Assembly (NCBI GenBank): GCA_903918195.1
Contig: CAIXDS010000099.1
Coordinates: forward strand, 27,787 to 91,786
Length of the DNA stretch: 64,000 nucleotides
Direction: 5' to 3'
Origin: an uncultured Acetobacteraceae bacterium
GTDB lineage: Bacteria; Pseudomonadota; Alphaproteobacteria; Acetobacterales; Acetobacteraceae
Shown here: piece by piece, positions 22-45,770 of the stretch
Numbering within the stretch: the first letter of the stretch is position 1
How the letters are laid out: each line of letters starts with the position of its first letter
The notes under the pieces: model-generated
Told to the model about the DNA's origin: nothing
Database searches by the model: none
The model's input: the letters and a program-made list of their open reading frames with translations, nothing else
Position numbers and translations under genes: made by a program

Positions 22-1500
22 ATGGTCAACCCCATCTCGCCGTTTCCGCTCAAGGACCCGACGCTGTTCCGTCAGGCCAACTTCATCGATGGCAAGTGGC
101 TCGAGGCCGACAGCGGCAAGACCATCGTGGTGAAGAACCCCGCCACCGGCGAGGCGATCGGCGCGGTGCCCGCCATGGGCACCGCCGAAACCCGCCGCGC
201 CATCGACGCCGCCTATCGCGCCCAGCCGGCCTGGCGGGCGCACACCGCCAAGGAACGCGCCGCGATCCTGCGCCGGCTGAACGACCTGATGCTGGCCAAC
301 GCCGAGGACCTGGCGGTCATCATGACCGCCGAGCAGGGCAAGCCGCTGGCCGAGAGCCGTGGCGAGATCGCCTATGCCGCGAGCTTCCTCGAATGGTTCG
401 CCGAGGAGGGCAAGCGCGTCTACGGCGACACCATTCCGCAGAACGCCCGCGGCCGGCGCATCATCGTGCAGAAGGAGCCGATCGGCGTGTTCGCCTCGAT
501 CACGCCGTGGAATTTCCCCAGCGCCATGATCACCCGCAAGACCGGCCCGGGCTGGGCGGCCGGCTGCACCGGCGTCATCCGCCCGGCCAGCCAGACCCCG
601 TTTTCCGCCATCGCCATCGCCGTGCTGGCCGAGCGGGCTGGCTTCCCGGCGGGCGTGTGCAACGTCATCACCGGACCGTCGGGCGATATCGGGGCAGAAC
701 TTACCTCCAGCCCACTGGTGCGCAAGATCACCTTCACCGGTTCGACCGAGGTGGGGGCCAAGCTGCTGGCCATGTGCGCGCCGACGATCAAGAAGACCAG
801 CATGGAACTGGGCGGCAACGCGCCCTTCATCGTGTTCGACGATGCCGACCTCGACGCCGCCGTGCAGGGGGCGATGGTCAGCAAATACCGCAACACCGGC
901 CAGACCTGCGTCTGCGCCAACCGACTGCTGGTGCAGGACTCGGTCTATGACGCCTTCGCTGCCAAGCTGAAGGCCGCGGTCGAGCAGCTCAAGGTCGGCA
1001 ACGGCATGGAGGAGGGCGTCACCCAGGGCCCGCTGATCAACGCCGATGCAGTGGCGAAGGTGGAGGAGCACATCGCCGACGCGCTCAGCCGCGGCGCCAC
1101 CATCGTCACCGGCGGGCAGCGCCACGCCCGTGGCGGTTCCTTCTTCCAGCCCACCCTGCTGGCCAATGTGCCGACCGACGCGCTGATTTTCCGTGAGGAA
1201 ACCTTCGGCCCGGTGGCGCCGCTGTTCCGCTTCCACACCGAGGAGGAGGCGATCCGGCTGGCCAATGACACCGAATTCGGCCTGGCCGCGTATTTCTATG
1301 CCCGCGATGTCGGCCGCGTCTTCCGGGTCGCCGAGGCGCTGGAATACGGCATCATCGGCGTCAACGAGGGCATCATCTCCACCGAGGTCGCCCCGTTCGG
1401 CGGGGTGAAGTCCTCCGGCCTCGGCCGCGAGGGTTCAAAATACGGCATCGAGGAATATATGGAGATCAAATACATCGCCCTGGGTGGCATCGGCGCCTGA
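22..1500 (+). CDS. gabD: NAD(P)-dependent succinate-semialdehyde dehydrogenase
   Basis: Aldehyde dehydrogenase superfamily protein of 492 aa, the usual GabD length. It oxidises succinate semialdehyde to succinate, the last step of the GABA shunt, in the cytoplasm. Visible motifs are the TPWNFP cofactor-site block (about residue 161), the general-base Glu in MELGGNAPF (E262) and the catalytic Cys in GQTCVCANR (C296). The lysine of the usual KPA cofactor motif reads as Arg here (VIRPASQTPFS, about 185-195). An aggaggac ribosome site lies just ahead of the ATG. Other aldehyde substrates such as glutarate semialdehyde are possible; the family assignment is secure. Confidence 0.93.
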   Translation: MVNPISPFPLKDPTLFRQANFIDGKWLEADSGKTIVVKNPATGEAIGAVPAMGTAETRRAIDAAYRAQPAWRAHTAKERAAILRRLNDLMLANAEDLAVIMTAEQGKPLAESRGEIAYAASFLEWFAEEGKRVYGDTIPQNARGRRIIVQKEPIGVFASITPWNFPSAMITRKTGPGWAAGCTGVIRPASQTPFSAIAIAVLAERAGFPAGVCNVITGPSGDIGAELTSSPLVRKITFTGSTEVGAKLLAMCAPTIKKTSMELGGNAPFIVFDDADLDAAVQGAMVSKYRNTGQTCVCANRLLVQDSVYDAFAAKLKAAVEQLKVGNGMEEGVTQGPLINADAVAKVEEHIADALSRGATIVTGGQRHARGGSFFQPTLLANVPTDALIFREETFGPVAPLFRFHTEEEAIRLANDTEFGLAAYFYARDVGRVFRVAEALEYGIIGVNEGIISTEVAPFGGVKSSGLGREGSKYGIEEYMEIKYIALGGIGA

Positions 1501-1605
1501 CACGGCGCCAAGTATAGCCACCTCCCATTATGTGGGAGAGGGGTGGGGGTGGGGGCCGCCGTGCACCTCCGCCCTCGACCTTTCGCCACGGATGCGAGGC
1601 CAGTG

Positions 1606-3045
1606 ATGCCCTACGATTTCGACCTTTTCGTCATCGGTGGCGGGTCCGGCGGCGTGCGCTGTGCCCGCATCGCCGCTGGCCACGGCGCCCGCGTGGCGGT
1701 GGCCGAGGAGCGCTTTTGGGGCGGCACCTGCGTCAACGTCGGCTGCGTGCCGAAGAAGCTCATGGTCATGGCCGCGGAGTACGGCATGGCCGCGCAGGAC
1801 AGCCATGGCTTTGGCTGGGATGCCGTGCCGGTGCAGCACCACTGGGCGGCGCTGATCGCTGCCAAGGACCGCGAAGTCGGCCGGCTGAACGGCATCTACC
1901 GCCGCCTGCTGGACGGCTCCGGCTGCACCGTGTTCGAGACCCGCGCGACGTTTCTGGATGCCCACACGCTCGACGTGGGCGGCCAGCGGGTGACCGCTGA
2001 CCGAATCGTGATCGCCACTGGCGGCCGCCCGGTACGTCCCGATTTTCCGGGCGCCGGGCACGCTATCGTCTCCGATGACGCGTTCGCTCTGCCGGACCTG
2101 CCGCGTCACATTGTCCTGCTCGGCGGCGGCTACATCGCCGTTGAGTTCGCCGGGATTTTTGCCGGCCTTGGCGCCAAGGTGGATCTCGTCTACCGGCAGC
2201 CTCTGCCGCTGCGCGGCTTCGACCAGGACCTGCGCACGGCACTCGCCGAGTCAATGGCGGCAAGCGGCATCCGCCTGCACCCCTGCGCCAGCATCGTCTC
2301 GGTGGTGGAGGGCTGCGGGTCGAAGCTGGTGGCGCTGTCGAACGGCAGGGTGCTGCACGCCGATCTGGTGTTCACCGCCATCGGCCGCCGGCCCCACACC
2401 GCCGGGCTTGGCCTGGCGCAGGCCGGCGTTGCTACCGACGGGTCAGGTGCGGTGTGCGTGCACGGCCAGGCCGAGACCTCGGTGCCCAATATCTTCGCCA
2501 TTGGCGATGTCACCGACCGGCTGAACCTGACGCCGGTGGCGATCGCCGAGGGGCATTCGCTGGCCGAGCGCCTGTTCGGGGCCGGTCCGCGCGACTGGGC
2601 GCTCGATGCGGTGGCCACCGCGGTGTTTTCCTCTCCCCCGATCGCCACGGTGGGCCTTACCGAGGCCGAGGCGGCGGCGCGCGGTCCGGCCGACATCTAC
2701 CTCACCCGCTTCACGCCGATGCGTCACATCCTGTCCTGCCGGGCGCGCAAGACATTGATGAAGCTGGTGGTGTGCCAACAGACCCAGCGCGTGCTGGGGG
2801 CGCACATGCTGGGCGAGGACGCGCCGGAGATCGTCCAGGGCCTGTCCATCGCCATCAACTGCGGCGCCACCAAGCCGGATTTCGACCGCACCGTGGGCAT
2901 CCATCCCACCGCCGCCGAGGAGTTCGTCACCCTGCGCACCCGCACCCGCGTCGCCCTGGCGCCAACGGTCGAGGAGATCGACGCCGAGGGCACGCCTGCA
3001 GACCTGATGGGTGCGGCCGAGATGGGGGTCGGGGCGGCCGAGTAA
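1606..3045 (+). CDS. gor: glutathione-disulfide reductase
   Basis: FAD-dependent pyridine nucleotide-disulfide oxidoreductase that reduces GSSG with NADPH in the cytoplasm. The N-terminal GGGSGG dinucleotide motif is followed by the redox-active CVNVGCVPKK box, a central GGGYIAVEFAG NADPH-binding motif, the FAD motif ending in FAIGDVTD, and the C-terminal HPTAAEE with the catalytic His of the partner subunit. The reading frame is open from 1543, but the ATG at 1606 directly precedes the conserved N terminus (MPYDFDLFVIGGG). The gene lies about 100 bp downstream of gabD and ends in a palindromic repeat. The dimerisation domain is intact, so mercuric or lipoamide reductase is unlikely. Confidence 0.93.
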   Translation: MPYDFDLFVIGGGSGGVRCARIAAGHGARVAVAEERFWGGTCVNVGCVPKKLMVMAAEYGMAAQDSHGFGWDAVPVQHHWAALIAAKDREVGRLNGIYRRLLDGSGCTVFETRATFLDAHTLDVGGQRVTADRIVIATGGRPVRPDFPGAGHAIVSDDAFALPDLPRHIVLLGGGYIAVEFAGIFAGLGAKVDLVYRQPLPLRGFDQDLRTALAESMAASGIRLHPCASIVSVVEGCGSKLVALSNGRVLHADLVFTAIGRRPHTAGLGLAQAGVATDGSGAVCVHGQAETSVPNIFAIGDVTDRLNLTPVAIAEGHSLAERLFGAGPRDWALDAVATAVFSSPPIATVGLTEAEAAARGPADIYLTRFTPMRHILSCRARKTLMKLVVCQQTQRVLGAHMLGEDAPEIVQGLSIAINCGATKPDFDRTVGIHPTAAEEFVTLRTRTRVALAPTVEEIDAEGTPADLMGAAEMGVGAAE

Positions 3046-3109
3046 GGAAGGCCAGGGCTCTGCCCTGGACCCGCCAAGGGCCGAGAGGCCCTTGGACCCC
3101 ATCACTTGG
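3046..3109. repeat. dispersed GC-rich palindromic intergenic repeat, copy 1
   Basis: Two nested hairpins lie directly after the gor stop: CCAGGGCTCTGCCCTGG and AAGGGCCGAGAGGCCCTT. The same words recur at 18150, 36647, 45849, 54512, 62405 and 63868. Its place at a gene end suggests a role in mRNA 3' ends or simply a REP-like family. No protein is supported here. Confidence 0.8.
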
Positions 3110-3198
3110 CCGCACCAGTAGCCAACCGACCCCATTCGGGGGATAACCACCGCCGTCGCCCGGCCGGACCGTGTTCGCCCGGGCCAGGAGCCCCTGCG

Positions 3199-4584
3199 AT
3201 GCCGACCACCTGGACCCCCGATTCCTGGCGCAGCCGTCCGATCCGTCAGGTACCCGCCTATCCCGACCTGGCGAAACTCGCCGCCGTCGAGGAGAAATTG
3301 CGCCGCTATCCCCCGCTGGTCTTTGCCGGCGAGGTGCGCCGGCTGAAGGCCGCCCTGGCCCGCGCCGCCGACGGCCGCGCTTTCGTGCTGCAGGGCGGCG
3401 ACTGCGCCGAAAGTTTTCAGGATTTCACCGCCAATATCATCCGCGACACGTTCCGCGTGCTGCTGCAGATGTCGGTGGTGCTCACCTTCGGCGCCTCGCT
3501 GCCGGTGGTGAAGCTCGGCCGCATGGCCGGCCAGTTCGCCAAGCCGCGCTCGTCGGACACCGATACCCGCGACGGCCAGACGCTGCCCACCTACCGCGGC
3601 GACATCGTCAACGGCGCCGAGTTCACGGCGGAAGCCCGCGTGCCCGATCCCACGCGCATGGAAACCGGCTATTTCCAGTCCGCCGGCACGCTCAACCTGC
3701 TGCGTGCCTTCGCCACCGGCGGCTATGCTGACCTGCACGAGGTGCATCGCTGGAACCTCGGCTTCGTCGCCCGCTCGCCGCTGATCGAGCGCTACCAGAC
3801 CCTGGCCCACCGCATCGACGAGACGCTGGCCTTCATGTCGGCCTGCGGCATCTCGTCGGCCACCACGCCGCAGATCCGCGAGACCGATTTCTTCACCAGC
3901 CACGAGGCGCTGCTGCTGCCGTACGAACAGGCGCTGACCCGCGTTGATTCCACCTCCGGCGACTGGTACGCCTGCTCGGCGCATTTCCTCTGGATCGGCG
4001 ACCGCACCCGCCAGCCGGACGGGGCGCATGTCGAGTTCATGCGCGGGGTGAAGAACCCGATTGGGTTGAAGGTCGGCCCCAGCACCCCGATTGAGGACCT
4101 GCTGCGCCTGATCGACATCCTCAACCCGGACGACGAGCCGGGGCGCCTGACCCTGATCGCCCGCATGGGGGCCGACAAGGTCGAGCGCGTGCTGCCGCCT
4201 TTGGTGCGGGCGGTACGACGGGAAGGCCGCCGCGTGGTCTGGGTCTGCGACCCGATGCACGGCAACACGATCGCGTCGAATGCCGGCCTCAAGACGCGCA
4301 GCTTCGATGCCATCCTGGCCGAGGTGCGCGGCTTCTTCGATGTCCACGCGGCCGAGGGCAGCTGGGCCGGCGGCGTGCATGTGGAAATGACCGGCCACGA
4401 GGTGACCGAGTGCATCGGCGGCGCGCACGGGCTGACCATGATGGATTTGGGCGAGCGCTACGAGACCTTCTGCGACCCGCGCCTGAACGCCGAGCAGTCG
4501 CTCGAACTGGCGTTTCTGGTCGCCGAGGAGCTGACCGCCCGCCGCCTGCCGCTGGACCGGAGCCCGGCGGTGGCGGCGCAGTAG
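3199..4584 (+). CDS. aroG: 3-deoxy-7-phosphoheptulonate synthase, class II
   Basis: Plant-type (class II) DAHP synthase of 461 aa that condenses phosphoenolpyruvate and erythrose 4-phosphate as the first committed step of the shikimate pathway. Diagnostic blocks are [34 protein letters not shown] and GGVHVEMTG. The ATG at 3199 ([10 protein letters not shown]) has GGAG about 10 nt upstream and fits the family N terminus; the in-frame extension to 3106 runs through the intergenic region and is unlikely to be translated. pncB starts 6 bp after the stop, so the two are probably cotranscribed. No type I DAHP synthase is in the window. Confidence 0.94.
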
Positions 4585-4590
4585 GCGGCG

Positions 4591-5769
4591 ATGTCCGCGC
4601 CGGGAGGGGAGGGCGGTGACGCGGCGGCCCTGGCGGCCGACATCGCCGCGCGCACCGACGCCTATTTCAACCGCACCCGCGCCATCGTGCAGCGCTATGG
4701 CGACAAGCAGGTCACCTACGCCGTGTTCCTGCGCCGGCCGGTCATTTCCGCGCCCCGGCTGATGCTGGACTGGCTCGCGGCCGTCGCGGCGGCGCGCGCC
4801 ACCAGCTTCGACTGCGACCTGATGTATCCGGAGGGCAGTTGGGTCGGTGCCGGCGAGCCGCTGGTCACCATCACCGGCAGCCTGGCCATGCTCTCCGACC
4901 TGGAGACGCTGGCGCTGCAGAAGGTCGGCCCGGCTTGCGTGGCCGCCCATAACGCCTACCAGATGTGCCTCGCCTTGCCCGCGGTCGCCTTCCTGGCCAT
5001 GGACGCGCGCCACTGCGCCGGCGCCGAGATGCAGGACATGATGGCCTATGCCGCCGCGGTCGGCGGCACCGCGGCGCAGGCCGAAGGTGCGCGCGGCTTC
5101 GTCGGCAACGCCAATGACGGCACGGCGCACTGGTTCGGTGGCGAGGCGCCGCGCGGCCGGGGCACCATGCCGCATTCGCTGATCGGCTATGCCGGATCGA
5201 CCGTGCGCGCCGCGGAGATGTTCCACGCGACGTTTCCGGACGAGGCGCTGACCGTTCTGGTTGATTATTTCGGCCGCGAGATCACCGACGGTATCGCCTC
5301 TTGCCGCCGCTTCGCAGCACTTGCCGCCCAGGGCCGCCTGTCGCTGCGGCTGGACACGCATGGCGGGCGCTTCCTGGAGGGGCTGGACCCGGCCGAAAGC
5401 TACGCCGTGCTGGAGCGCCACGCCCCCGGGGCGATCCGCCGCTATCGCAGCGAGACCGAATTGCGTTTCCTGGTCGGCACCGGCGTCTCGGCCGCCGCCA
5501 TCTGGCGGATGCGCGAGGCGCTGGACGCGGCCGGTTTCCCGGCGGTGAAGATCGTCGCCTCCTCCGGCTTCGGCGTGGACAAATGCCGGGTGATGGCGGA
5601 TGCGAAGGCGCCGATCGATGTCGTCGGCACCGGCAGCTTCATCCCGGATGCCTGGCACGAAACCTACGCCACGGCCGACATCATCGATTACGACGGCGTG
5701 CCGATGGTCAAGCTCGGCCGCGAATTCCTGCTGCGGCGCAACGGCGCGCGCAGGAAGGCGGGCGGCTGA
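4591..5769 (+). CDS. pncB: nicotinate phosphoribosyltransferase
   Basis: 392-aa enzyme of the Preiss-Handler NAD salvage route, converting nicotinate and PRPP to nicotinate mononucleotide. The N-terminal block TDAYFNRTRAIVQRYGDKQV and the C-terminal phosphate-binding region VKIVASSGFGVDKC followed by DVVGTGSF are characteristic of this family. The ATG at 4591 follows the aroG stop by 6 bp. NAD synthetase (nadE) lies 0.8 kb downstream on the same strand, with two small genes between them, so the NAD function of the neighbourhood is consistent. Confidence 0.92.
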   Translation: MSAPGGEGGDAAALAADIAARTDAYFNRTRAIVQRYGDKQVTYAVFLRRPVISAPRLMLDWLAAVAAARATSFDCDLMYPEGSWVGAGEPLVTITGSLAMLSDLETLALQKVGPACVAAHNAYQMCLALPAVAFLAMDARHCAGAEMQDMMAYAAAVGGTAAQAEGARGFVGNANDGTAHWFGGEAPRGRGTMPHSLIGYAGSTVRAAEMFHATFPDEALTVLVDYFGREITDGIASCRRFAALAAQGRLSLRLDTHGGRFLEGLDPAESYAVLERHAPGAIRRYRSETELRFLVGTGVSAAAIWRMREALDAAGFPAVKIVASSGFGVDKCRVMADAKAPIDVVGTGSFIPDAWHETYATADIIDYDGVPMVKLGREFLLRRNGARRKAGG

Positions 5770-12570: not shown

Positions 12571-13452
12571 ATGATTCGTTATCGTCTTCCGGGCGCGCCG
12601 CTTGCGGCGCTTGCCGGCCTCTTTTCTCTCATGCTGACCCTGGCACCTGCGGCACAGGGTCAGGATTATTTCATCCCCAACCAGCCGCATGCCCCGGCCC
12701 CCGCCGCCGCTCCGGCCCGGCCGGCTCAGCAGGTCCGCCAGCAGCGCCCGCCGGTGCAGGTGGCGCCGCAGCCGCCGGTTGGCCCGGAGGAGCAGCAGCA
12801 ACAGCCCTTGCCGCCGCTGCAGGTGCAACTGCCGCCGCAGCCGGAAATCCCCGCCCTGCCGAAGGGCACCAGCCCGCCGGCGCCCGTGCTCGGCGTGCTC
12901 GGCGTGCCGGAAGTGATGCGTGCGTCCACCGCCGCCCAGCAGGTCGAGAAGACCATCGGCGCGCGGCGCGAGAAGCTGAACGCGGACGCCCAAAAGGAAC
13001 AGGCCACTTGGCGCGAGATGCAGCAGACCCTGGCGAATGAGCGCAACAAGCTTTCGGCCGACCAGATCCGCTCCCGCGAACGCGAATTGCAGGACCGCAT
13101 CACCCGGGCGCAGCGCGACTTCCGCGACCGCAGCACCATCGTCCAACAGGCCGCCCAGTACGGGCTGGCGCAGATCGAGCGTGTCCTGGTCGGCGTCATC
13201 CAGAAAGTCGCCGAGAGCCGGGGCATGAACCTGGTGCTGCACCGCCAGCAGGTGGCGCTGAACGTCAACGAGTTCGACATTACCGAGCAGGTCACCGAGC
13301 AGCTCAACAAGATACTGCCGTCCGTCATCATCCCGCCCGACGGCGTCTCGCCGGCGGCGATGCAGAAGAACCAGCCCGCTGAGGCGCAGACCGTCGCGGC
13401 ACCGGCCCAGCCTGCCGCGTCGCCACAGCCTGCCGCGCCACCGAAGAAGTAG
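12571..13452 (+). CDS. skp: OmpH/Skp-family periplasmic chaperone
   Basis: Periplasmic holdase that escorts unfolded outer membrane proteins to BAM. The signal peptide is hydrophobic (LAALAGLFSLMLTLAPAAQG). A proline- and glutamine-rich stretch of about 85 residues follows, which is longer than in enteric Skp, and then the coiled-coil OmpH core (about 115-240) with the alternating charged pattern LSADQIRSRERELQDRI. The tail is Pro/Ala-rich. The ATG at 12571 lies 6 bp after the bamA stop; a GTG at 12565 is also in frame. Position between bamA and lpxD is the classical one. Confidence 0.9.
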   Translation: MIRYRLPGAPLAALAGLFSLMLTLAPAAQGQDYFIPNQPHAPAPAAAPARPAQQVRQQRPPVQVAPQPPVGPEEQQQQPLPPLQVQLPPQPEIPALPKGTSPPAPVLGVLGVPEVMRASTAAQQVEKTIGARREKLNADAQKEQATWREMQQTLANERNKLSADQIRSRERELQDRITRAQRDFRDRSTIVQQAAQYGLAQIERVLVGVIQKVAESRGMNLVLHRQQVALNVNEFDITEQVTEQLNKILPSVIIPPDGVSPAAMQKNQPAEAQTVAAPAQPAASPQPAAPPKK

Positions 13453-13454
13453 CC

Positions 13455-14570
13455 GTGGCGGCGCCGCCGGACCCTGGTGCTCCGCCGGCCGTGGCGACGG
13501 CCGGCGACGCACGCTTCTTTCACCGTGCCGGCCCGCACGCGCTGAGCGCGGTGGCCGCCGCCGCTGGCGGGGCCGCGCCCGCGCGGGAGCTGATGCTGGC
13601 GGGGGTTGCCCCGCTGCAATCGGCCGGCCCCGACCAGGTGAGCTTCCTCGACAACCGGAAATATCTGCCCGAGTTGGAAGCGACCCGCGCCGGTGCGGTG
13701 ATCGTCCACCCCAACATGGCGGCGCGGGTGCCGGCGGGCAGTGCGGCCATCATCACCGCCGAGCCCTATCTGGGCTGGGCGCGGGTGGCGGCGCTGTTTC
13801 ATCCGCTGCCGCCGCTGCGGTCCGGCCGCCATCCCAGCGCGGTGGTCGATCCCGACGCGCAGGTGGACCCGAGCGCGGAGATCGGACCGCTCGCAATCGT
13901 GCTGGCGCGCGCCGAGATCGGGCCGCGCTGCCGGATCGGTGCGGGGGCGGTGATCGGCGAAGGGGTGGTGCTCGGCGCCGATTGCCGCATCGGCACGCAT
14001 GCCAGCATCAGCCATGCGTTGCTGGGGGCGCGGGTCTATATCTACCCCGGCGCCCGCATCGGCCAGGACGGGTTCGGCTTCGCGCCGTCGCCCACCGGCT
14101 TCGTCACCGTGCCGCAGCTCGGCCGGGTTTTGATCGAGGACGACGTGGAGGTCGGCGCCAACAGCACGATCGACCGCGGCTCGGCGCAGGACACCGTGAT
14201 CGGCGCCGGCTCCCGGCTCGACAACCTGGTACAGATCGGGCACAACGTCCGCCTCGGACGCTGCTGCGTGATCGTGTCGCAGGCCGGCATTTCAGGTTCG
14301 ACGGTGTTGGAGGATTTCGTCCAGGTAGCCGGTCAGGCCGGACTGACCGGGCATTTGCGTATCGGGCGGAAGGCGCGTATCGGCGCCCAATGCGGCGTGA
14401 TGGCGGACGTTGCGGCCGGCGCGGACGTACTGGGTAGCCCAGCCCTGCCCGTGCGCGAGTTCTTCCGCCAGGTGTTGGCGCTGCGGCGGCTCGCCGCTGC
14501 GCGGCGCCCGGGTTCGGACGGCAACGAAGGGGCCGGCGATGCGCCGGCGGCAAACAAGGCTACGGACTGA
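13455..14570 (+). CDS. lpxD: UDP-3-O-acylglucosamine N-acyltransferase
   Basis: Third enzyme of lipid A synthesis, adding the N-linked acyl chain from acyl-ACP. After an N-terminal uridine-binding domain (PDQVSFLDNRKYL) the protein is a left-handed beta-helix of hexapeptide repeats. The catalytic His lies in LVQIGHNVRLG, and the VSQAGISGSTVLED block is typical. It starts at a GTG 2 bp after the skp stop and precedes fabZ by 5 bp. The length (371 aa) is slightly over the usual 340 because of a C-terminal tail. Confidence 0.94.
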   Translation: MAAPPDPGAPPAVATAGDARFFHRAGPHALSAVAAAAGGAAPARELMLAGVAPLQSAGPDQVSFLDNRKYLPELEATRAGAVIVHPNMAARVPAGSAAIITAEPYLGWARVAALFHPLPPLRSGRHPSAVVDPDAQVDPSAEIGPLAIVLARAEIGPRCRIGAGAVIGEGVVLGADCRIGTHASISHALLGARVYIYPGARIGQDGFGFAPSPTGFVTVPQLGRVLIEDDVEVGANSTIDRGSAQDTVIGAGSRLDNLVQIGHNVRLGRCCVIVSQAGISGSTVLEDFVQVAGQAGLTGHLRIGRKARIGAQCGVMADVAAGADVLGSPALPVREFFRQVLALRRLAAARRPGSDGNEGAGDAPAANKATD

Positions 14571-38183: not shown

Positions 38184-40334
38184 TTACAGGAACGGCGCCG
38201 CCCGCTCCAGCAACTCCTCCAGCCCCGGCTCGTTCGCATCGCGCGGCTTGCCCGGGTGGATCACCGAGACCTGGCAGCTCTCCGCCGCCTCGACGAGGTG
38301 GCGGTAGGGGCCGGCCGCCGGGTTGATGATGGTCGCCTGCCGGTTGGCGTCGTAGCCGAACATGCGGTCGTTGACCCGGATGCACTCGTTGCAACTGCTG
38401 CAGCGGGCCGATTCGATGTACGCCGCATCGGGCACCGGCTCCGGTTCGGCGGCCGCCTCGGCGGGCGTGGGCAGTTCGGTGGCGGTGGGGGCAACGACGG
38501 GGGGGGCGACGACGGGCGGGGAAGCCGGCTGGGCCTGCCGCTCCCATTCCTGGCGGGCCGCCGCGATCTGCCGGGCCGCGTGCGAGTTGTTAATGCCGCC
38601 CAGCTCCTGCAGGGCGTGCCAGCGGCCCAGGCAGCGGCGGGCCTCACGCAGCAGCGCATCGGCGGCCAGCACCTTGTGCAGCCCGTCCTCGGCATCGGCC
38701 AGGAACAGGCAGGGCACGCGGCCTTCCGGGTCCGGCCGCGATTGGGCCACCGCCTCGGCGACCGGCACCAGATGGCCGTTCCACGCCTCCGGCGCGACGC
38801 GGGCGAGATGCGGCGCGGCGCGCCGGTCCATCGCCAGGAAATCAACCAGGGTGAACGCCACCGTCTCGCCCTGCCGGTGATGCGCCGCATCCTCCCAGCC
38901 CAGCGCATGCAGCGGCCAGTCGCGGTCGGCCTGCGGGTTGGCATCGAGGGTGAACCGCGACGCCCAGTCCGGCCCGGCGCCGGGGTCGTAGGCGAAGGCG
39001 GGAAACGCCCGCGATTCCACCGCGGCAGCCGACACCAGATAGGGCGGCAGCGGCGCGGTTGCCGGCCCAGTGCCGCTGAACACGCTGAACAGCGCCGGCC
39101 CGTCAAACGCGAGCCCGGCCTGCACGCGGCCCAGCAGGGCGAACAACTGCGAGGCGCCGGCCTGCAGCACATAGACATCGCTCAGGCTGAGGGCGGTCGC
39201 GGCGATCGGCCGCACCGGCAGGCCGAGTGCTGCCAATGCGCCGCCGCCGCCCAGCAGGTCGTCGGTCTGCACCAGCAGCTTGAACGGCAGCCCGGCGCCG
39301 AGCGCTTCGACGATCATCGCCGCCCGGTCCGGCGTCAGCTCATGGTCGGCGACGCACACCAGATAATCGGGGACAATTGCCGCCGTCTGGGCGGCCGGGC
39401 CGTCGCCGAGGCCGGCGAACAACGCATCGTGTTTGGCCTCGTTGTATTCACCGGCGACTTCCAGCCGCGCCATGGCGATCGCGCGCGCCAGTTCGGCGGC
39501 GGCGGGCTGACGCTCGCGCCACGCCTGCAGCGCCGGCTCGCACCCGTCGAAGGCGAAACTGTAGGGGGTGGCGGCGTGGCCCGACAGCGGGACAAAAGCC
39601 TGCGTCCGCAGCACCGTCAGCAGCCATTCGATCCGCCGCCGGCGGCCGTCGTCCAGCCCGCCGGTGGGGGCGGCATGGGCGAGCAGGCGCGCCATGGCGT
39701 CGAAGTCGAAGCTGGCGGCCAGCCCCGATCCGATCGCCGCGCGCAACCGCTCCGGGCTGCGGCTTTCCGGCGAGGCGGCGAAGTCGGCTTTCAGGATGTT
39801 CTCCAGCCCCGTCAGCAGCGTGCCGATCGTCTGCCGCAGGCGGTCGGTCCTGGCGCGCTGCTGCTCGGCCCATTCATGCGCGAGCAGGCGCGCCGCCAGT
39901 TTTCCATCACAGCCGGCCAGCGCACCGTCGCGCGGCAGGGCCAGGCGCAGGCGGTCGAAGCTCTCGCGCAGGCCCGGGTCCGCGGTGAGCAGGGGGTCGG
40001 ACGCGGCGTCCCAAGCCGCCGCCAAAGTTTCCGCCGTGCCCTCGGCGGCGAGGCGGCGCAGCGCGCGTTCGATGCGCCGTGCGTGGCCGCGCAGGCGCTC
40101 GGCGGCGTCGCCCTCGCCGGCGCCGGCCAGCGCTGCATCGAACAGCCCGGACAGGCTGCGTGCCGGTGCGCCCGGCGTCAGCACCAGCGGAAAATCGTGG
40201 CGCAGCGCGGCGAGGTCGCGATAGGCCGCGAGCGCTGCCGGCAGCAGACCGCGCCCTTCGATCGGCTCCAGCGCGCCGGAGGAGAGCCGGCCGGTCAGGT
40301 AGAAGGCGAACTGGTCCTGGTGTGCGATGTGCAT
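38184..40334 (-). CDS. degenerate PFOR-like protein with C-terminal 4Fe-4S domain
   Basis: 716 aa, last gene of the nfn-kor operon. Residues 322-480 line up with the TPP/beta domain end of pyruvate:ferredoxin oxidoreductase: SLSDVYVLQAGASQLFALL resembles the NifJ VYVA-type segment, DGPALFSVFSG the GPSLIIAY segment and AAAVESRAFPAFAYDP the AVKSGYWPLWRYDP segment. The TPP-binding GDG motif reads VADH (about 328-331), so catalysis is unlikely. After a Pro-rich linker, C645, C648, C651 and C687 form a ferredoxin-like 4Fe-4S site. It is probably an electron-transfer or scaffold subunit. The N-terminal 320 residues are unassigned. Confidence 0.7.
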   Translation of the reverse strand: MHIAHQDQFAFYLTGRLSSGALEPIEGRGLLPAALAAYRDLAALRHDFPLVLTPGAPARSLSGLFDAALAGAGEGDAAERLRGHARRIERALRRLAAEGTAETLAAAWDAASDPLLTADPGLRESFDRLRLALPRDGALAGCDGKLAARLLAHEWAEQQRARTDRLRQTIGTLLTGLENILKADFAASPESRSPERLRAAIGSGLAASFDFDAMARLLAHAAPTGGLDDGRRRRIEWLLTVLRTQAFVPLSGHAATPYSFAFDGCEPALQAWRERQPAAAELARAIAMARLEVAGEYNEAKHDALFAGLGDGPAAQTAAIVPDYLVCVADHELTPDRAAMIVEALGAGLPFKLLVQTDDLLGGGGALAALGLPVRPIAATALSLSDVYVLQAGASQLFALLGRVQAGLAFDGPALFSVFSGTGPATAPLPPYLVSAAAVESRAFPAFAYDPGAGPDWASRFTLDANPQADRDWPLHALGWEDAAHHRQGETVAFTLVDFLAMDRRAAPHLARVAPEAWNGHLVPVAEAVAQSRPDPEGRVPCLFLADAEDGLHKVLAADALLREARRCLGRWHALQELGGINNSHAARQIAAARQEWERQAQPASPPVVAPPVVAPTATELPTPAEAAAEPEPVPDAAYIESARCSSCNECIRVNDRMFGYDANRQATIINPAAGPYRHLVEAAESCQVSVIHPGKPRDANEPGLEELLERAAPFL

Positions 40335-40375: not shown

Positions 40376-41368
40376 TCAGCCGGCGTCCGGCGCCGCTGTG
40401 GCGGGCACGGCGTGCGGCCAGATGGTGAATTTGTCGAACTCGGCTTCCAGCCCGGCGCGGATGTGCTCGGGCGAGCGGGCCGGCCCGGATTGGCGCAGGT
40501 CTTCGTAACAGGGCACGTCCGGATTGTGGTACAGGATGCCGACCGGAATCGGGTCGTGCCCCGAGGCCACTTCGCGCGCCGCTGACAGGTCGCGCGGATC
40601 GTGCTCAAGCTGGTTGCGGTAGATTTTTCCCAGGCCCGGGCTGATGGAAAGCCCGCGCTCGTGGTGCAGCAGGCGCACCCGCAGCGGGTCCTGGATATAC
40701 GGCTCGAACATCTTCGGCAGCCATTCCGGGCAGCGCTGCAGAATGCGCACGAACGAGAAGCCGCGGTGCCGGTGGGCGGCGCGCAGGATGTCGTAGAGCG
40801 TCTCGGGAATCCAATCGACTGCCTGGGCCACGAACGAGACGTTCTGCACCCCGAGCGTCACCTGCAGCGGCTGCAGCGCCTCCAGATAGCTGCCGTGCGG
40901 GGTGGTGTTGCTGCGCGTGCCGATCGGCGAGGTCGGCGAGGCCTGCTTCTTGGTCAGGCCGTAGATCTGGTTGTCATGCAGCATGACCGTGAGGTTCATG
41001 TTGTAGCGGATGGCGTGAATCCAGTGCGCCGCGCCGATGCTGCAGCAATCGCCGTCGCCGGTATTGACGAACACCGCCAAATCGGGCCGGGCCATGCGGA
41101 TGCCCTCGGCGATCGGCAGGGCGCGGCCATGCAGGCTGTGCAGCCCGTAGGTGTTCATGTAATGCGGCAGGCGGCTGGAGCAGCCGATGCCGGAAACGAA
41201 CACGGTCTTTTCCGGGCGAAGGTCTTCGTCGCGGCACAGCCGCTGCACCGCGGTCAGGATGGCGTTGTCGCCGCAACCCGAGCACCAGCGCGGCACCCCG
41301 CTCTGGTAATCCTCCAGGGCGTGGTGCTCATCGTGCAGGCGCAGCAGGCATTCGGTGGCGTCGCTCAT
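40376..41368 (-). CDS. korB: 2-oxoacid:ferredoxin oxidoreductase, beta subunit
   Basis: 330-aa TPP-binding subunit. The TPP motif GDGDCCSIGAAHWIHAI is followed by NLTVMLHDNQIYGLTKKQAS, both classic for this family, and cysteines for the 4Fe-4S cluster appear in RWCSGCGDNAIL and SGIGCSSRLPHYM. It oxidatively decarboxylates a 2-oxoacid (2-oxoglutarate or a branched-chain or pyruvate analogue) and passes electrons to ferredoxin. The start at 41368 overlaps the korA stop, so subunits are made together. Substrate cannot be fixed by eye. Confidence 0.9.
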   Translation of the reverse strand: MSDATECLLRLHDEHHALEDYQSGVPRWCSGCGDNAILTAVQRLCRDEDLRPEKTVFVSGIGCSSRLPHYMNTYGLHSLHGRALPIAEGIRMARPDLAVFVNTGDGDCCSIGAAHWIHAIRYNMNLTVMLHDNQIYGLTKKQASPTSPIGTRSNTTPHGSYLEALQPLQVTLGVQNVSFVAQAVDWIPETLYDILRAAHRHRGFSFVRILQRCPEWLPKMFEPYIQDPLRVRLLHHERGLSISPGLGKIYRNQLEHDPRDLSAAREVASGHDPIPVGILYHNPDVPCYEDLRQSGPARSPEHIRAGLEAEFDKFTIWPHAVPATAAPDAG

Positions 41369-43269
41369 GCTTGTTCTCCCGTCGCGGCGGCGAGTTTTTC
41401 GAGGGCGACGCGGCGGATGGAGCTGGGTTTGATCGGCTGGCCCTTGACCTCGCTCCAGCAATCGATGTCGATCAGCGTGCGGGCGCGCAGCAGCATGGCC
41501 AGCGCCGAATAGCGGCGGTTATCGGCGTCGATCATCGCGTCGTCCGGCCGGTCGCTCCAGTTCGCCTCGATCGTCAGCACCTGACCGAAGCGCTGCATGA
41601 TCGCCTTCAGGCCGGGCTGCATCGGCTGCAGGAAGGAAAGATGCAGCGAGGAGACGCGGAGGCCTTCCGCGCGCAGACCATCGACAGCTTCCTCAATCGC
41701 GCCGCGGGTGCTGCCCCAGCCCACCACCAGCAGATCGCCATCCGCGTCGCCATGCACCACCGGCGGGCGCAGCGTCTTCTGCAGGGTGGCGAGCTTCAGG
41801 CTGCGGGCGTGAATGCTTTGTTCGTTGCTGTCGGAATCATAGGCGACCTTGCTGGCGCGGTCATGCGCGAGACCGGTGAGGGTGTGCATGCCGCCGGGCT
41901 GGCCGGGGATGAAGCGGCGCGAGAGACCGGTGATTTCATCCCAGTCATAGGGGCGCATGCCGGGCGGCACCCGGCTCTGATCGGCGGGGGCGGCGAGCCA
42001 GGCCGCATCGAAGGTCGGCCGCGGGAACGGCTGCTGCGAGGTGGCGAGCGAGGCGTCCGAAAGCACCACCACCACCATGCCGAAAGCCTCGGCCAGCTTG
42101 CGGGCGGTGATGATGGAATAGAAACATTCTTCGATGGTTGAAGGCGCGATCACCACTTTCGGTGCATCGCCATGGCTGCCGAACATGGTGGTGAGCAGGT
42201 CGCCCTGCTCGACCTTGGTGGGCTGGCCGGTGCTGGGTCCGCCGCGCTGGACGTTGACCACCACCAGCGGAATTTCGCCCATCACCGCCAGCCCGATCGC
42301 CTCCTGCTTGAGCGAATAGCCCGGCCCCGAGGTGATGGTGACGGTGCATTTGCCGGCATAAGACGCGCCGATCGCGAAGGCGCAGGCGGCGATTTCGTCC
42401 TCGGCCTGATGCACCAGCCCGCCGACCTTCTCGAACACGTCGCTCAGGTAGTGCGAGGCCGAGGTGGCCGGGGTGATCGGATACATGGCGCAGACCTCCA
42501 TGCCGGAGGCCAGGACGCCGAGCGCCAGCGCGGTGTTGCCGTTGACCACGATCTGCGGTTCGGTCACCGGGGAGGCGGGGATGGAGAAGCGGAGATCAAG
42601 GTTGCGCTGGGTCCAGTCGAAGCCGGCTTCCAGCAGCGCCACGTTCTGCGTGACGACGGATTTGTCCTTCTTGCCGAAGGCGAGGGCAATCTGTTCGCGC
42701 GCCAGCTCCAGATCGAGGCTGTAGATGCGGCACAGCATGCCGAGGGCGAACATGTTCTTGCCGCGCCGCGCATCGGCGACCAGCTTGTGGCATTCCCGCT
42801 CCATCGGGATTTCGCGCACATCGTAGCCGGCGGCGACCAGCCGGTCGTGCACCTGCACATAGCTGGCGGCGATGGCGGGGTCGCGGTCCTCGCGCCACAT
42901 GCTTTCCAGCAGGATGGTGCAGCCCGGCTTGAGGTCGCCGGCATGCACCCGGCCGAGCAGCACCTGTTCGTTGAAGGCGACGGTCAGATCGGTCTGGCCG
43001 CCGCCATTGGTGATGCGCCCGGCGCCGAGGCGGATGCGGTTGCCGCTGGCGCCCGCGGTGCTGCGCGCGGGCGGGCGGATTTCGGCGGGGATGATTTCCA
43101 CCGTCCAGACGCCGTTGCCCATGCGCGCGGCGATGGCGCCGAACGCCTGGCCGCAGCGTTGCGCGCCTTCGCCGGAATCGCTGATGATTTCGACGATATG
43201 CTCGGCGAGCACAACGGGCTGGCTGGCGCCGGTCCGGCGTTCAGGTTCGATCGTAACCGCGTCGTTCAT
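41365..43269 (-). CDS. korA: 2-oxoacid:ferredoxin oxidoreductase, gamma-alpha fusion
   Basis: 634-aa fusion of gamma and alpha subunits. The gamma part (about 20-200) has GEGAQRCGQAFGAIAARMGN. The alpha pyrimidine-binding domain begins near residue 240 with YPITPATSASHYL, then LVHQAEDEIAACAFAIGASY and SGPGYSLKQEAIGLAVMGE. The C-terminal part with SLHLSFLQPMQPGLKAIMQR completes domain II. CoA-dependent cleavage is expected. The fused layout is the common bacterial KorA arrangement. The ATG at 43269 is chosen over the frame start at 43299. Pairs with korB. Confidence 0.92.
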   Translation of the reverse strand: MNDAVTIEPERRTGASQPVVLAEHIVEIISDSGEGAQRCGQAFGAIAARMGNGVWTVEIIPAEIRPPARSTAGASGNRIRLGAGRITNGGGQTDLTVAFNEQVLLGRVHAGDLKPGCTILLESMWREDRDPAIAASYVQVHDRLVAAGYDVREIPMERECHKLVADARRGKNMFALGMLCRIYSLDLELAREQIALAFGKKDKSVVTQNVALLEAGFDWTQRNLDLRFSIPASPVTEPQIVVNGNTALALGVLASGMEVCAMYPITPATSASHYLSDVFEKVGGLVHQAEDEIAACAFAIGASYAGKCTVTITSGPGYSLKQEAIGLAVMGEIPLVVVNVQRGGPSTGQPTKVEQGDLLTTMFGSHGDAPKVVIAPSTIEECFYSIITARKLAEAFGMVVVVLSDASLATSQQPFPRPTFDAAWLAAPADQSRVPPGMRPYDWDEITGLSRRFIPGQPGGMHTLTGLAHDRASKVAYDSDSNEQSIHARSLKLATLQKTLRPPVVHGDADGDLLVVGWGSTRGAIEEAVDGLRAEGLRVSSLHLSFLQPMQPGLKAIMQRFGQVLTIEANWSDRPDDAMIDADNRRYSALAMLLRARTLIDIDCWSEVKGQPIKPSSIRRVALEKLAAATGEQA

Positions 43270-43276
43270 GTGTGCC

Positions 43277-44764
43277 TCAGGCGATGCGCAGGCGGACAAA
43301 ATTGCGTTCTTCGCGTGGGATGCCGAACAGGCCGCCCGGGGCGCTTGGCGCTGAAGGATCGGACAAACCCAGATAATCCTTCATGCTGCGCGCGGCGCGC
43401 CGGCCCGCGCCCATCGCCTCGATGACGGTCGCCGCCCCGGTGACGATATCGCCGCCGGCATAGACGCCGGCCAGCGAGGTGGCGAGGGTTTCGTCCACCG
43501 CGATGTAGCCGCGCTTGTCCAACGCGAGGCCCGACGTCTGGCCGATGATCGGATTGGCGTTGGTGCCGATGGCGAACACGATCTGATCGACCTCGATGTC
43601 GTGTTCGCTGCCCGGCACCGGCACCGGGCGGGCGCGGCCGGAGCGATCCGGCTCGCCCAACTCCATGCGCTGGCAGCGCAGCGCCCGCACATTGCCCTTT
43701 CCATCGCCGAGCACTTCCACCGGCGCGGTCAGCCAATGGAATTCGATGCCTTCCTGTTCGGCATGGTGCACTTCCTCGGCGCGGGCCGGGCATTCGGCGC
43801 GGCTGCGGCGGTAGATGCAACTCACCTGCTCGGCGCCGAGCCGCAGACACACGCGCATCGCATCCATGGCGGTGTTGCCCGCGCCCACCACGGCGACATG
43901 GCGGCCGAGCGGCAGCGGCGTGTCCACGGCGGGGAAGTCGCGCGCGCGCATCAGGTTGCAGCGGGTCAGCAACTCGTTGGCCGACAGCACGCCGTTCAGC
44001 GAGTCGCCGGGAATGCCGAGCATGGCCGGATAACCCGCGCCGGTGCCGATGAACACGGCATGGTAGCCGAGTTCGTCGATCATCTGTTCGATGCTGAACA
44101 GCCGCCCGACCAGCGTGTTGCATTCGAAACGCACGCCGAGCCGGCGCAACCCCTCGATCTCGGCATCGACCACGCTGTTGGGCAGGCGGAAATCGGGAAT
44201 GCCGTAGCGCAGCACGCCGCCGGGCAGATGGAACGCCTCATACACGGTGACGGCGCAGCCCGCCTTGGCCATGTCGGCCGCGCAGGCCATGCCGGCCGGG
44301 CCGGAACCGACCACGCCGATGCGCAGCCCGTTCGGCTCGATATAGGGCCGGCGGGCGAACCCCCCGGCGATGGCGCGGTCGCCGACGAAGCGTTCCAGCC
44401 GGCCGATCGCCACCGGTTCCAGCACGTCGCCGACGATGCACACGCCTTCGCACTGGTTCTCCTGCGGACAGACCCGGCCGCACACCGCGGGCATCAGGTT
44501 GGTGCGCGCCAGCACGTCATAGGCGCCGCGGATATCGCCGGCGGAAATGCGGGAAATGAAGCCCGGGATGTCGATGCCGACCGGGCAGCCGGAGGTGCAG
44601 GCGGGTTCGGGGCAGACCAGGCAGCGCTGCGATTCCAGCGTCGCCTCGGCTTCGTTGTAGGCGAGCGTCACTTCCTCGAAATTGCCGCGCCGTGCTGCCG
44701 GGTCCTGCTCGCGTGCCGGGGTCCGTTGCTGCGGGATGCTGCGTATCGTGCGCTTCGGGGCCAT
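43277..44764 (-). CDS. NfnB/GltD-like NADPH-dependent FAD oxidoreductase
   Basis: 495-aa flavoprotein homologous to the glutamate synthase small subunit and to NfnB. The N-terminal Cys-rich domain (CLVCPEPACTSGCPVGIDIP and CGRVCPQENQCEGVC) binds two 4Fe-4S clusters, the FAD motif is VVGSGPAGMACAADMAKAG, and the NADPH motif is VAVVGAGNTAMDAMRVCLRL. No glutamate synthase large subunit is nearby; instead the partner upstream is an NfnA/SudB-like protein, so the NfnAB reading is preferred. It would exchange electrons between NADPH and ferredoxin. The C-terminal 35 residues are a Pro/Ser extension. Confidence 0.88.
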   Translation of the reverse strand: MAPKRTIRSIPQQRTPAREQDPAARRGNFEEVTLAYNEAEATLESQRCLVCPEPACTSGCPVGIDIPGFISRISAGDIRGAYDVLARTNLMPAVCGRVCPQENQCEGVCIVGDVLEPVAIGRLERFVGDRAIAGGFARRPYIEPNGLRIGVVGSGPAGMACAADMAKAGCAVTVYEAFHLPGGVLRYGIPDFRLPNSVVDAEIEGLRRLGVRFECNTLVGRLFSIEQMIDELGYHAVFIGTGAGYPAMLGIPGDSLNGVLSANELLTRCNLMRARDFPAVDTPLPLGRHVAVVGAGNTAMDAMRVCLRLGAEQVSCIYRRSRAECPARAEEVHHAEQEGIEFHWLTAPVEVLGDGKGNVRALRCQRMELGEPDRSGRARPVPVPGSEHDIEVDQIVFAIGTNANPIIGQTSGLALDKRGYIAVDETLATSLAGVYAGGDIVTGAATVIEAMGAGRRAARSMKDYLGLSDPSAPSAPGGLFGIPREERNFVRLRIA

Positions 44765-44786: not shown

Positions 44787-45668
44787 TCAGGAGGCGGCCA
44801 GCAGGGCGCGCATGCGGCAGGTTTCGGACCAGCGTGCCACCGCCGCCTTTTCTTCCTCGGCGTAGCGGCGCAGGCGGGTCATCAAATCATCGAAATCGAC
44901 CAGATGGCCGTCGAAATCCGGCCCGTCCACGCAGGCGAACTTGACCACGTCGCCCAGCTTCACCCGGCAGCCGCCGCACATGCCGGTGCCGTCCACCATG
45001 ATCGGGTTGAGGCTGACCATGGTGCGGATGCCGTGTGGCCGTGTCGCCTCGGCGCAGGCTTTCATCATCACCGGCGGGCCGATCGCCACCACCTCGTCGA
45101 TGTCGGGGTGGGCGGCGATGGCCTGGCGGATGCCGTCGCTGACGAAGCCCTTCATCCCGGCGGACCCGTCATCGGTGCACAGGATCACCTCGTCGCAGAC
45201 GGCGCGGAAACGGTCTTCCCAGAACACCAGGTCTTTGGTGCGGAAGCCGAGGATGCCGATGACGCTGGCGCCGTTCTGCTTGAAGCCGCGCGCCTGCGGG
45301 TAGATCGGCGCGACGCCGAGGCCGCCGCCGACGCAGACCACTTTTTTCGCAGCACCCATATGGGTGGGCACGCCCATCGGCCCGACCAGCGCATGCAGGC
45401 GGGTGCCCACGGTGCAGGTCTGCTGCATTTCCTTGGTGGTCTTGCCGACCGCCTGGATGACCAGGGTGACGGTGCCTTCGGCCGCGTCGAAATCGGCGAT
45501 GGTGAGCGGGATGCGCTCGCCTTCCGGGTGCGACATGACGATGACGAACTGGCCGGGGCGGGCGGCGCGGGCCATCATGGGATGGCGCACCGCGAGCAGG
45601 TAGGTCACGTCGGAAAAGTCTTCCCGCCGGACGATCTCAAAGCCGGACTCGGTCTGGTTATCGGGCAT
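44787..45668 (-). CDS. NfnA/SudB-like FAD/[2Fe-2S] subunit
   Basis: 293 aa, the first gene of the operon. FAD-binding ferredoxin reductase domain with ARPGQFVIVMSHPEGERIPLTI, an NAD-binding motif VVCVGGGLGVAPIYPQ, and the C-terminal 2Fe-2S Cys cluster in GTGMCGGCRVKLGD and FACVDGPDFDG. This matches dihydroorotate dehydrogenase electron-transfer and NfnA (SudB) proteins. It likely takes electrons from NADH and, with NfnB, couples them to ferredoxin and NADPH. The start at 45668 has GGAGGAGG upstream. A perfect FNR/FixK box lies about 105 bp before it. Confidence 0.88.
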   Translation of the reverse strand: MPDNQTESGFEIVRREDFSDVTYLLAVRHPMMARAARPGQFVIVMSHPEGERIPLTIADFDAAEGTVTLVIQAVGKTTKEMQQTCTVGTRLHALVGPMGVPTHMGAAKKVVCVGGGLGVAPIYPQARGFKQNGASVIGILGFRTKDLVFWEDRFRAVCDEVILCTDDGSAGMKGFVSDGIRQAIAAHPDIDEVVAIGPPVMMKACAEATRPHGIRTMVSLNPIMVDGTGMCGGCRVKLGDVVKFACVDGPDFDGHLVDFDDLMTRLRRYAEEEKAAVARWSETCRMRALLAAS

Positions 45669-45770
45669 GCAGGTGCCTCCTCCCTTCAGCACGAGGCGAT
45701 CAGCACCTCGAGCAGGCTGTTCGCCCGCCATGTGACCGGACCGAATGTCATCATTTCGATTTCGACACCT

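Follow-up and report, generated by a model that had tools for sequence, protein, structure and literature searches.

A degenerate half of a pyruvate:ferredoxin oxidoreductase as a candidate third subunit of KorAB beside Nfn-type genes

The P716 gene, its operon and its architecture

The window analysed here is a stretch of 64,000 nucleotides from an uncultured Acetobacteraceae bacterium (assembly GCA_903918195.1, contig CAIXDS010000099.1, positions 27,787 to 91,786). On its minus strand, an open reading frame with an ATG start (40334..38184) encodes a 716-residue protein, P716, which combines a degenerate C-terminal half of a long pyruvate:ferredoxin oxidoreductase (PFOR) with a C-terminal ferredoxin domain. 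The original prediction, which named no strand, had described this gene as a degenerate thiamine pyrophosphate (TPP) domain of a PFOR fused to a [4Fe-4S] ferredoxin domain. Predicted fold, profile alignment and family-wide motif loss agree with that description.

P716 is the last of five genes on the same strand, in the order NfnA-like, NfnB-like, KorA, KorB and P716; all coordinates given for these genes and their parts refer to the minus strand. The NfnA-like protein (44787..45731) scored 378.6 with NF004862 (cut-off 220) and its residues C252, C255 and C267 are present in 55 of 55 rows. The NfnB-like protein (43277..44764) scored 570.3 with TIGR01316 (cut-off 471.75), with eight N-terminal cysteines in 57/57 rows. 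KorA, a fused gamma-alpha subunit (41365..43299), exceeded the TIGR03710 cut-off (502.0 against 482.75). KorB, the beta subunit of the 2-oxoacid:acceptor oxidoreductase (40376..41461), carries GDGD and the cluster cysteines C60, C63, C94 and C244 in all 67 rows; it scored 81.3 with PF02775 (cut-off 21.9) and 236.5 with TIGR02177 (cut-off 261.9). Because KorB retains GDGD and its cluster cysteines and both Nfn proteins retain theirs, KorB and the Nfn pair all look alive. The ATG at 41368 is the more likely KorB start than the listed one and would overlap the KorA stop.

As had been predicted, P716 lies directly after korB: KorB ends at 40376 and P716 starts at 40334, 41 bases further on. A 22-base gap separates the two Nfn genes and overlaps of 23 and 97 bases follow with the listed starts (smaller with later ATGs), a spacing from which a single transcript is likely. 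Scans for promoters and terminators gave no signal exceeding shuffles, and a plus-strand frame overlapping P716 (38256-40508) came from a mechanical listing, with no support as a gene seen.

Within P716, residues 9-137 (39924..40310) are, by hhalign, the counterpart of the PFOR domain-V segment without its two cluster motifs; residues 9-60 align cleanly and 61-137 via large gaps. Residues 138-604 (38523..39923) form a core like PFOR domain VI, lacking the TPP and Mg motifs and keeping Cys142 as the sole one of four proximal-cluster cysteines. The domain VI fold was found in the predicted structure of P716; VIA-align scarcely tested the stretches ahead of residue 46 and beyond residue 580. An Ala/Pro-rich linker (residues 605-637; 38424..38522) is predicted to be flexible, with a predicted local distance difference test (pLDDT) score below 50 at 608-630. 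It leads into a single [4Fe-4S] ferredoxin domain of Fer4_13-like type (residues 638-716; 38187..38423) with Cys645, 648, 651 and 687. The PFOR-like strings on which the original prediction relied are in place (VYVLQAG at 387-393, GPALFSVFSG at 412-421, AAAVESRAFPAFAYDP at 436-451 and RFTLDA at 460-465); the likeness to C-terminal PFOR segments stands, and in fact runs nearly end to end, including the remnant of the domain-V segment.

Of 7996 candidates scored in a protein database search, 728 were P716 homologues at E<=1e-3; where any of the 120 listed bears a name, it is 'ferredoxin' or 'hypothetical protein'. PF13370 is precomputed for part of the homologues, and a search with the family profile of P716 found ferredoxin I (1dax) with E 2.9e-4. 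The single P716 sequence gave nothing better than E 0.14 against solved structures and no match in NCBIfam, and the PF02775 match that the original prediction had looked to did not appear at E<=1.

Motif loss and conservation across the family

The family set comprised 182 P716 rows, after L072 and L008 (short) and seven identical rows had been dropped; for alignment A1, 15 of the 120 listed homologues were removed first as partial or near-duplicate. The parents compared were the 111 full-length long PFORs (>1600 residues) of 121. Every one of these has GGDG in context, the NTGGQ loop, two domain-V CxxCxxCxxxC motifs, CxGC[GS]E, [NS][SA]TGC, the fourth-cysteine motif and the C-terminal ferredoxin motif. 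P716 proteins keep the last of these only (180/182 by motif): CxxCxxCxxxC occurs in 0/182, and the TPP/Mg motifs (GDG and the NTGG loop) are in place in 0/182, against 111/111 parents.

Where PFOR has GGDG, P716 has VADH (residues 328-331; 39342..39353), the replacement originally proposed, and hhalign sets VADH opposite the GGDG of the intact enzyme. Columns 329-331 of the alignment read GDG in none of the 182 rows, and the column of the GDG aspartate holds D in 12. P716 does contain a GDG string at 310-312, ahead of the strand that bears the motif in PFOR and next to a loop (313-316) with pLDDT below 50, and ten GGDG strings occur in the family, all away from columns 329-331. Because it is off position, no row has GDG in the aligned columns and the GGDG strings of the family lie elsewhere, the string at 310-312 is not the TPP motif. 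Neither an unrelated fold nor a conserved TPP site, the two outcomes that would have spoken against the original prediction, was found.

The four ferredoxin ligands Cys645, 648, 651 and 687 are near-invariant, as 182, 182, 181 and 182 of 182. Although 76 rows came from a scan that required ferredoxin peptides, the remaining 106 give 106, 106, 105 and 106. The linker has a median length of 43 residues (25-76), with 36% Ala and 16% Pro.

At the start of the former cofactor loop, the segment QTDD (residues 356-359; 39258..39269) places a new, near-invariant acidic pair (D358 in 180/182, D359 in 181/182) where the Mg/TPP loop of PFOR begins. Cys142, a former proximal ligand, is kept in 181/182, and the other three proximal motif positions are gone. 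C142, C265 (170/182), D358 and D359 are thus near-invariant though TPP and the proximal cluster have been lost. The new aspartates, together with a body that retains domain VI, the part of 2-oxoacid:ferredoxin oxidoreductases (OFORs) that pairs with the alpha subunit, would suit a pseudo-beta subunit. P716 would then replace one KorB in an asymmetric KorA2-KorB-P716 complex, mainly for assembly or regulation, with its ferredoxin secondary. We regard this as unlikely: the best-conserved part of P716 is the ferredoxin domain and not the body (mean top-residue frequency 0.84 against 0.64-0.75 in the body segments), and the segment ahead of domain VI, needless for replacing KorB, has been kept.

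One scan of the genomes of 84,980 species returned 317 stretches coding for a relative, and the locus counts that follow are from the best 80. Mean identity over these 80 loci is 47%, and 87 alignment columns are conserved at >=98.5%. Against five genus mates, dN/dS is 0.33-0.64 for P716 and 0.22-0.33 for KorB (Nei-Gojobori, a crude estimate at this GC content), and no stop codons occur in the P716 matches. The loss of active-site motifs is what a decaying, functionless relic would display; with purifying selection within the genus and this degree of conservation, such a relic is highly improbable. Homology to PFOR and loss of its motifs are firm, and from dN/dS and conservation together with the motif loss, P716 has been retained by selection yet without the essentials of a PFOR catalyst.

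Relationship to the long PFOR of rnf operons, and distribution

In its own genome, P716 matches the C-terminal half of a 1724-residue PFOR (L003; 28% over residues 384-604), and hhalign against six L003-type PFORs of the genus gave a probability of 99.9 over 138-591. Two far closer long PFORs came from 398 sampled genomes of the phylum (263 and 242 bits; the next 112). Each has an RnfB-type gene on one side and an RnfC-type gene on the other, contains GGDG and ends in a ferredoxin domain of the type found in P716. Aligned by hhalign with the final 905 residues of the Rnf-linked PFOR, P716 reached a probability of 100 (E 5.3e-65), its residues 9-715 falling on 11-904, with 9-60 and 138-715 aligned well and 61-137 with large gaps; the same P716 profile against alignments of KorA, KorB, NfnA and NfnB gave probabilities of at most 1.1.

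In a tree of 63 rows, one clade (100/99) holds P716 (23 rows) and two distant relatives. It groups with the Rnf-linked PFORs (96/83); the remaining long PFORs, the beta-type subunits and NifJ all fall outside. The Rnf-linked long PFOR is thus the likely sister group, or nearest parent, of P716. The original prediction was right about the C-terminal half of PFOR; NifJ itself, which branches far outside, is ruled out as the parent. The 'Nfn-type' labels of L099, L100, L103, L106, L190 and L191 in the tree rest on sequence, an Nfn neighbour having been seen for the genus loci and L099 only. Frames of 547-592 residues were considered as short P716 proteins and rejected: GGDG and Fe-S motifs are present in the five that were read (L107, L108, L112, L113 and L114), and L116 and L119, of the same group, fit the GGDG pattern, so that these seven are beta subunits of the ordinary kind with a ferredoxin part. 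With Fer4_13, the distant relative P0244 reaches 24.5 bits, equal to the cut-off; as a query it returned one match, probably since its Ala/Ser linker fills the word list.

The ferredoxin module is found in several settings. At L156 it is fused to a PFOR between RnfB and RnfC. At L183 the rnf-operon PFOR lacks it, and a 127-residue frame (4273-4653) with the same domain (Fer4_13 26.7 bits) comes after an Rnf membrane subunit, at the end of the operon. At L169 (4159-13440), KorA (52%), KorB (51%) and a P716-like protein with the module come after a PFOR that has no C-terminal ferredoxin; the same genome also carries an Nfn-Kor-P716 operon (L096). L184 has in succession KorA (51%), KorB (48%), a P716-like protein and a free 92-residue copy (4236-4511; Fer4_13 37.8 bits), near an rnf operon. 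Across this series the ferredoxin domains are 39-68% identical pairwise, against 19-26% to that of the Nfn-linked PFOR L003. The module is mobile between the PFOR and KorAB contexts; the body of the P716-like kind accompanies KorAB.

At L156 (4313-12710) and L157 (4550-12984), Pfam gives the order RnfB, a PFOR of about 1640 residues with C-terminal ferredoxin, RnfC and RnfD, which suggests that pyruvate electrons may reach Rnf via the built-in ferredoxin. At L183 an RnfB-type protein (13315-14184), too, has a ferredoxin domain of the Fer4_13 type at its C-terminus (34.1 bits). The 1724-residue PFOR of the own genome (contig C96, 2949-8123) keeps its TPP motif intact, ends in a ferredoxin domain of another kind and adjoins a fused NfnB-NfnA protein of 1013 residues (100-3141). 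A PFOR-Nfn pairing parallel to Kor-P716-Nfn occurs in the own genome and in genus mates.

Where the contig extends far enough upstream, P716 has KorB next to it in 74/74 loci, followed outwards by KorA (64/64), NfnB (58/58) and NfnA (55/55), all on the same strand. Beyond these five genes, nothing wider was found in the 80 loci than a downstream gene of the polyhydroxybutyrate depolymerase type in 9 (Pfam on one of them). By title the loci are mostly betaproteobacterial, with Alpha- and Gammaproteobacteria; the outliers are three metagenome-assembled genomes (MAGs) of Acidobacteriota type, one Selenomonadales and one Spirochaetia MAG, and MAG titles may be wrong. L091 is a locus of the cultured Propionivibrio soli SG131. 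The titles of L033 (Bordetella parapertussis) and L077 (Selenomonadales) do not fit the close relatives of their operons, and these are probably misnamed or misbinned MAG contigs; the match rows of L077 are those of L070 (Accumulibacter). Eleven loci (L018-L021, L030, L032, L033, L041, L050, L051 and L053) have within 10 kb of the P716 operon a second, distant set of genes (26-35% identity), KorA/KorB-like and often GltD-like.

Among 100 relatives 8 match, seven with P716 (the own genome, five of six genus mates and one other genus) and one (G004) with a long PFOR only. In the 398-genome sample, P716 itself occurs only in the own genome and some KorA in 109; among the matches listed, KorAs outside the own genome are at most 41% identical. 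The P716-linked KorAs form one clade of the KorA tree (26 rows, 100/100), outside which lie 29 KorAs from genomes without P716 and four from a second cluster. P716 is therefore tied to one KorA clade, not to KorA generally.

Among the matches listed for 20 P716 genomes, three have an Rnf-type long PFOR, five another long type and 12 neither, although several of the 12 show NifJ-size frames. As 12 show none, P716 seems independent of a long PFOR. It is quite improbable that P716 serves a full-length long PFOR in trans, as a mixed dimer, instead of KorAB: these 12 genomes and a gene order that binds P716 to KorAB outweigh the shared lineage of P716 and the long PFOR and the PFOR without C-terminal ferredoxin that precedes the KorA-KorB-P716-like genes at L169.

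Proposed role and comparison with known systems

Our preferred reading, to which we give a probability of roughly 0.6, is that P716, homologous to the C-terminal part of the Rnf-linked PFOR, acts as a third subunit of KorAB, its body docking and its linker-borne ferredoxin linking KorAB with the predicted NfnAB. What ties P716 to KorAB is synteny and shared clades, and the gene order is in keeping with the original proposal that it may transfer electrons as a subunit, or serve KorAB and Nfn as a docking scaffold. The PFOR-shaped body would dock on KorAB and hold the ferredoxin near the KorAB pocket that domain V fills in PFOR. Since KorAB by sequence has only its own proximal cluster, the ferredoxin would take the electron from KorAB, and the linker could let it swing to the Nfn pair. 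The net reaction would be 2-oxoacid + CoA + NAD(P)+ to acyl-CoA + CO2 + NAD(P)H, or the reverse, with 2-oxoglutarate the likely substrate.

The E1 component of 2-oxoglutarate dehydrogenase scored above cut-off in 20/21 P716 genomes, so that the Kor-P716-Nfn system is likely an additional route beside this dehydrogenase, perhaps a low-oxygen or reductive one. The same count implies that many hosts are probably aerobic or facultative, which would suit a P716 that covers the KorAB cluster as a shield against oxygen; we think this improbable, as a cap leaves the conserved ferredoxin ligands and the linker unexplained.

Several observations weigh against the adaptor reading. The one Pfam match of P716, to Fer4_13 (PF13370) at residues 641-693, is of the ferredoxin kind that the original prediction had looked to, but at 19.9 bits it lies below the cut-off of 24.5. 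Branches leading to P716 are long (at least 1.05) and 14 rows have odd composition, which makes the sister group less sure than the tree support suggests. At L169 and L184, KorAB and a P716-like protein occur with no Nfn adjoining them; Nfn need not be the exit there, and KorAB would be the steady partner while the exit partner may vary. The locus counts come from the best 80 of 317 stretches, and a scan requiring ferredoxin peptides would miss members without that domain. Among the matches listed, 8 of the 20 P716 genomes also show a long PFOR, which P716 might serve.

A more specific form of the adaptor is possible but tentative. The body would occupy the place of domains V and VI on KorAB, and the ferredoxin would swing on the Ala/Pro linker of 25-76 residues within a soluble Kor-P716-Nfn assembly, which would release no free ferredoxin and work as a 2-oxoacid:NAD(P)+ oxidoreductase, possibly a confurcating one. 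P716 would then be the redox equivalent of the swinging lipoyl arm in 2-oxoacid dehydrogenase complexes.

Among known systems, the long PFOR of rnf operons (about 1630-1670 residues; L156, P0123-P0242; annotated, if at all, as '2-oxoacid:acceptor oxidoreductase family protein') is colinear with P716 over its final 905 residues, and both end in a single-cluster ferredoxin domain of one type (39% identity in the pair compared). Unlike P716, that PFOR has the TPP motif, three further sets of cluster motifs and an N-terminal half, and it lies between RnfB and RnfC, whereas P716 follows KorB. P716 differs likewise from the PFOR of Moorella thermoacetica (6cin, residues 692-1170) in having neither GDG nor the Mg loop and one of the four proximal-cluster cysteines. 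If our reading holds, a multi-cluster enzyme has been cut down to a single-ferredoxin scaffold and reused as an adaptor for another 2-oxoacid enzyme. OorD of Helicobacter pylori OorDABC (8ys5) we take to be the small ferredoxin subunit of a four-subunit OFOR acting on 2-oxoglutarate; P716 would presumably share this role and differ by its pseudo-PFOR body of about 600 residues. A possible parallel is the 2-oxoglutarate:NADP+ oxidoreductase of Azoarcus evansii, whose third subunit may belong to the P716 family. Our literature search, with limited coverage of subscription journals, found no account of KorAB together with a degenerate half of a PFOR.

The layout of KorA (domains III-I-II) and KorB (domain VI) without domain V is that of the two-subunit OFOR of Sulfolobus tokodaii (5b46-5b48). 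The pocket of that enzyme can accept an external ferredoxin in place of domain V; it uses free ferredoxin, and the accessible portion of the source mentions no P716-like subunit (PMC5020499). The neighbouring NfnA and NfnB match models of the Nfn type; AadN of Rhodopseudomonas palustris is Nfn-like. According to the accessible portion of PMC9973337, KorAB supplies benzoyl-CoA reductase in Thauera aromatica, and the aromatic degradation cluster of nearly all tabulated R. palustris strains contains one of the two, AadN or KorAB, with one strain lacking both. Unlike this either/or arrangement, Nfn and KorAB genes here stand side by side with P716, which would be a named candidate for the link from a two-subunit KorAB to NAD(P) via Nfn in mainly proteobacterial genomes.
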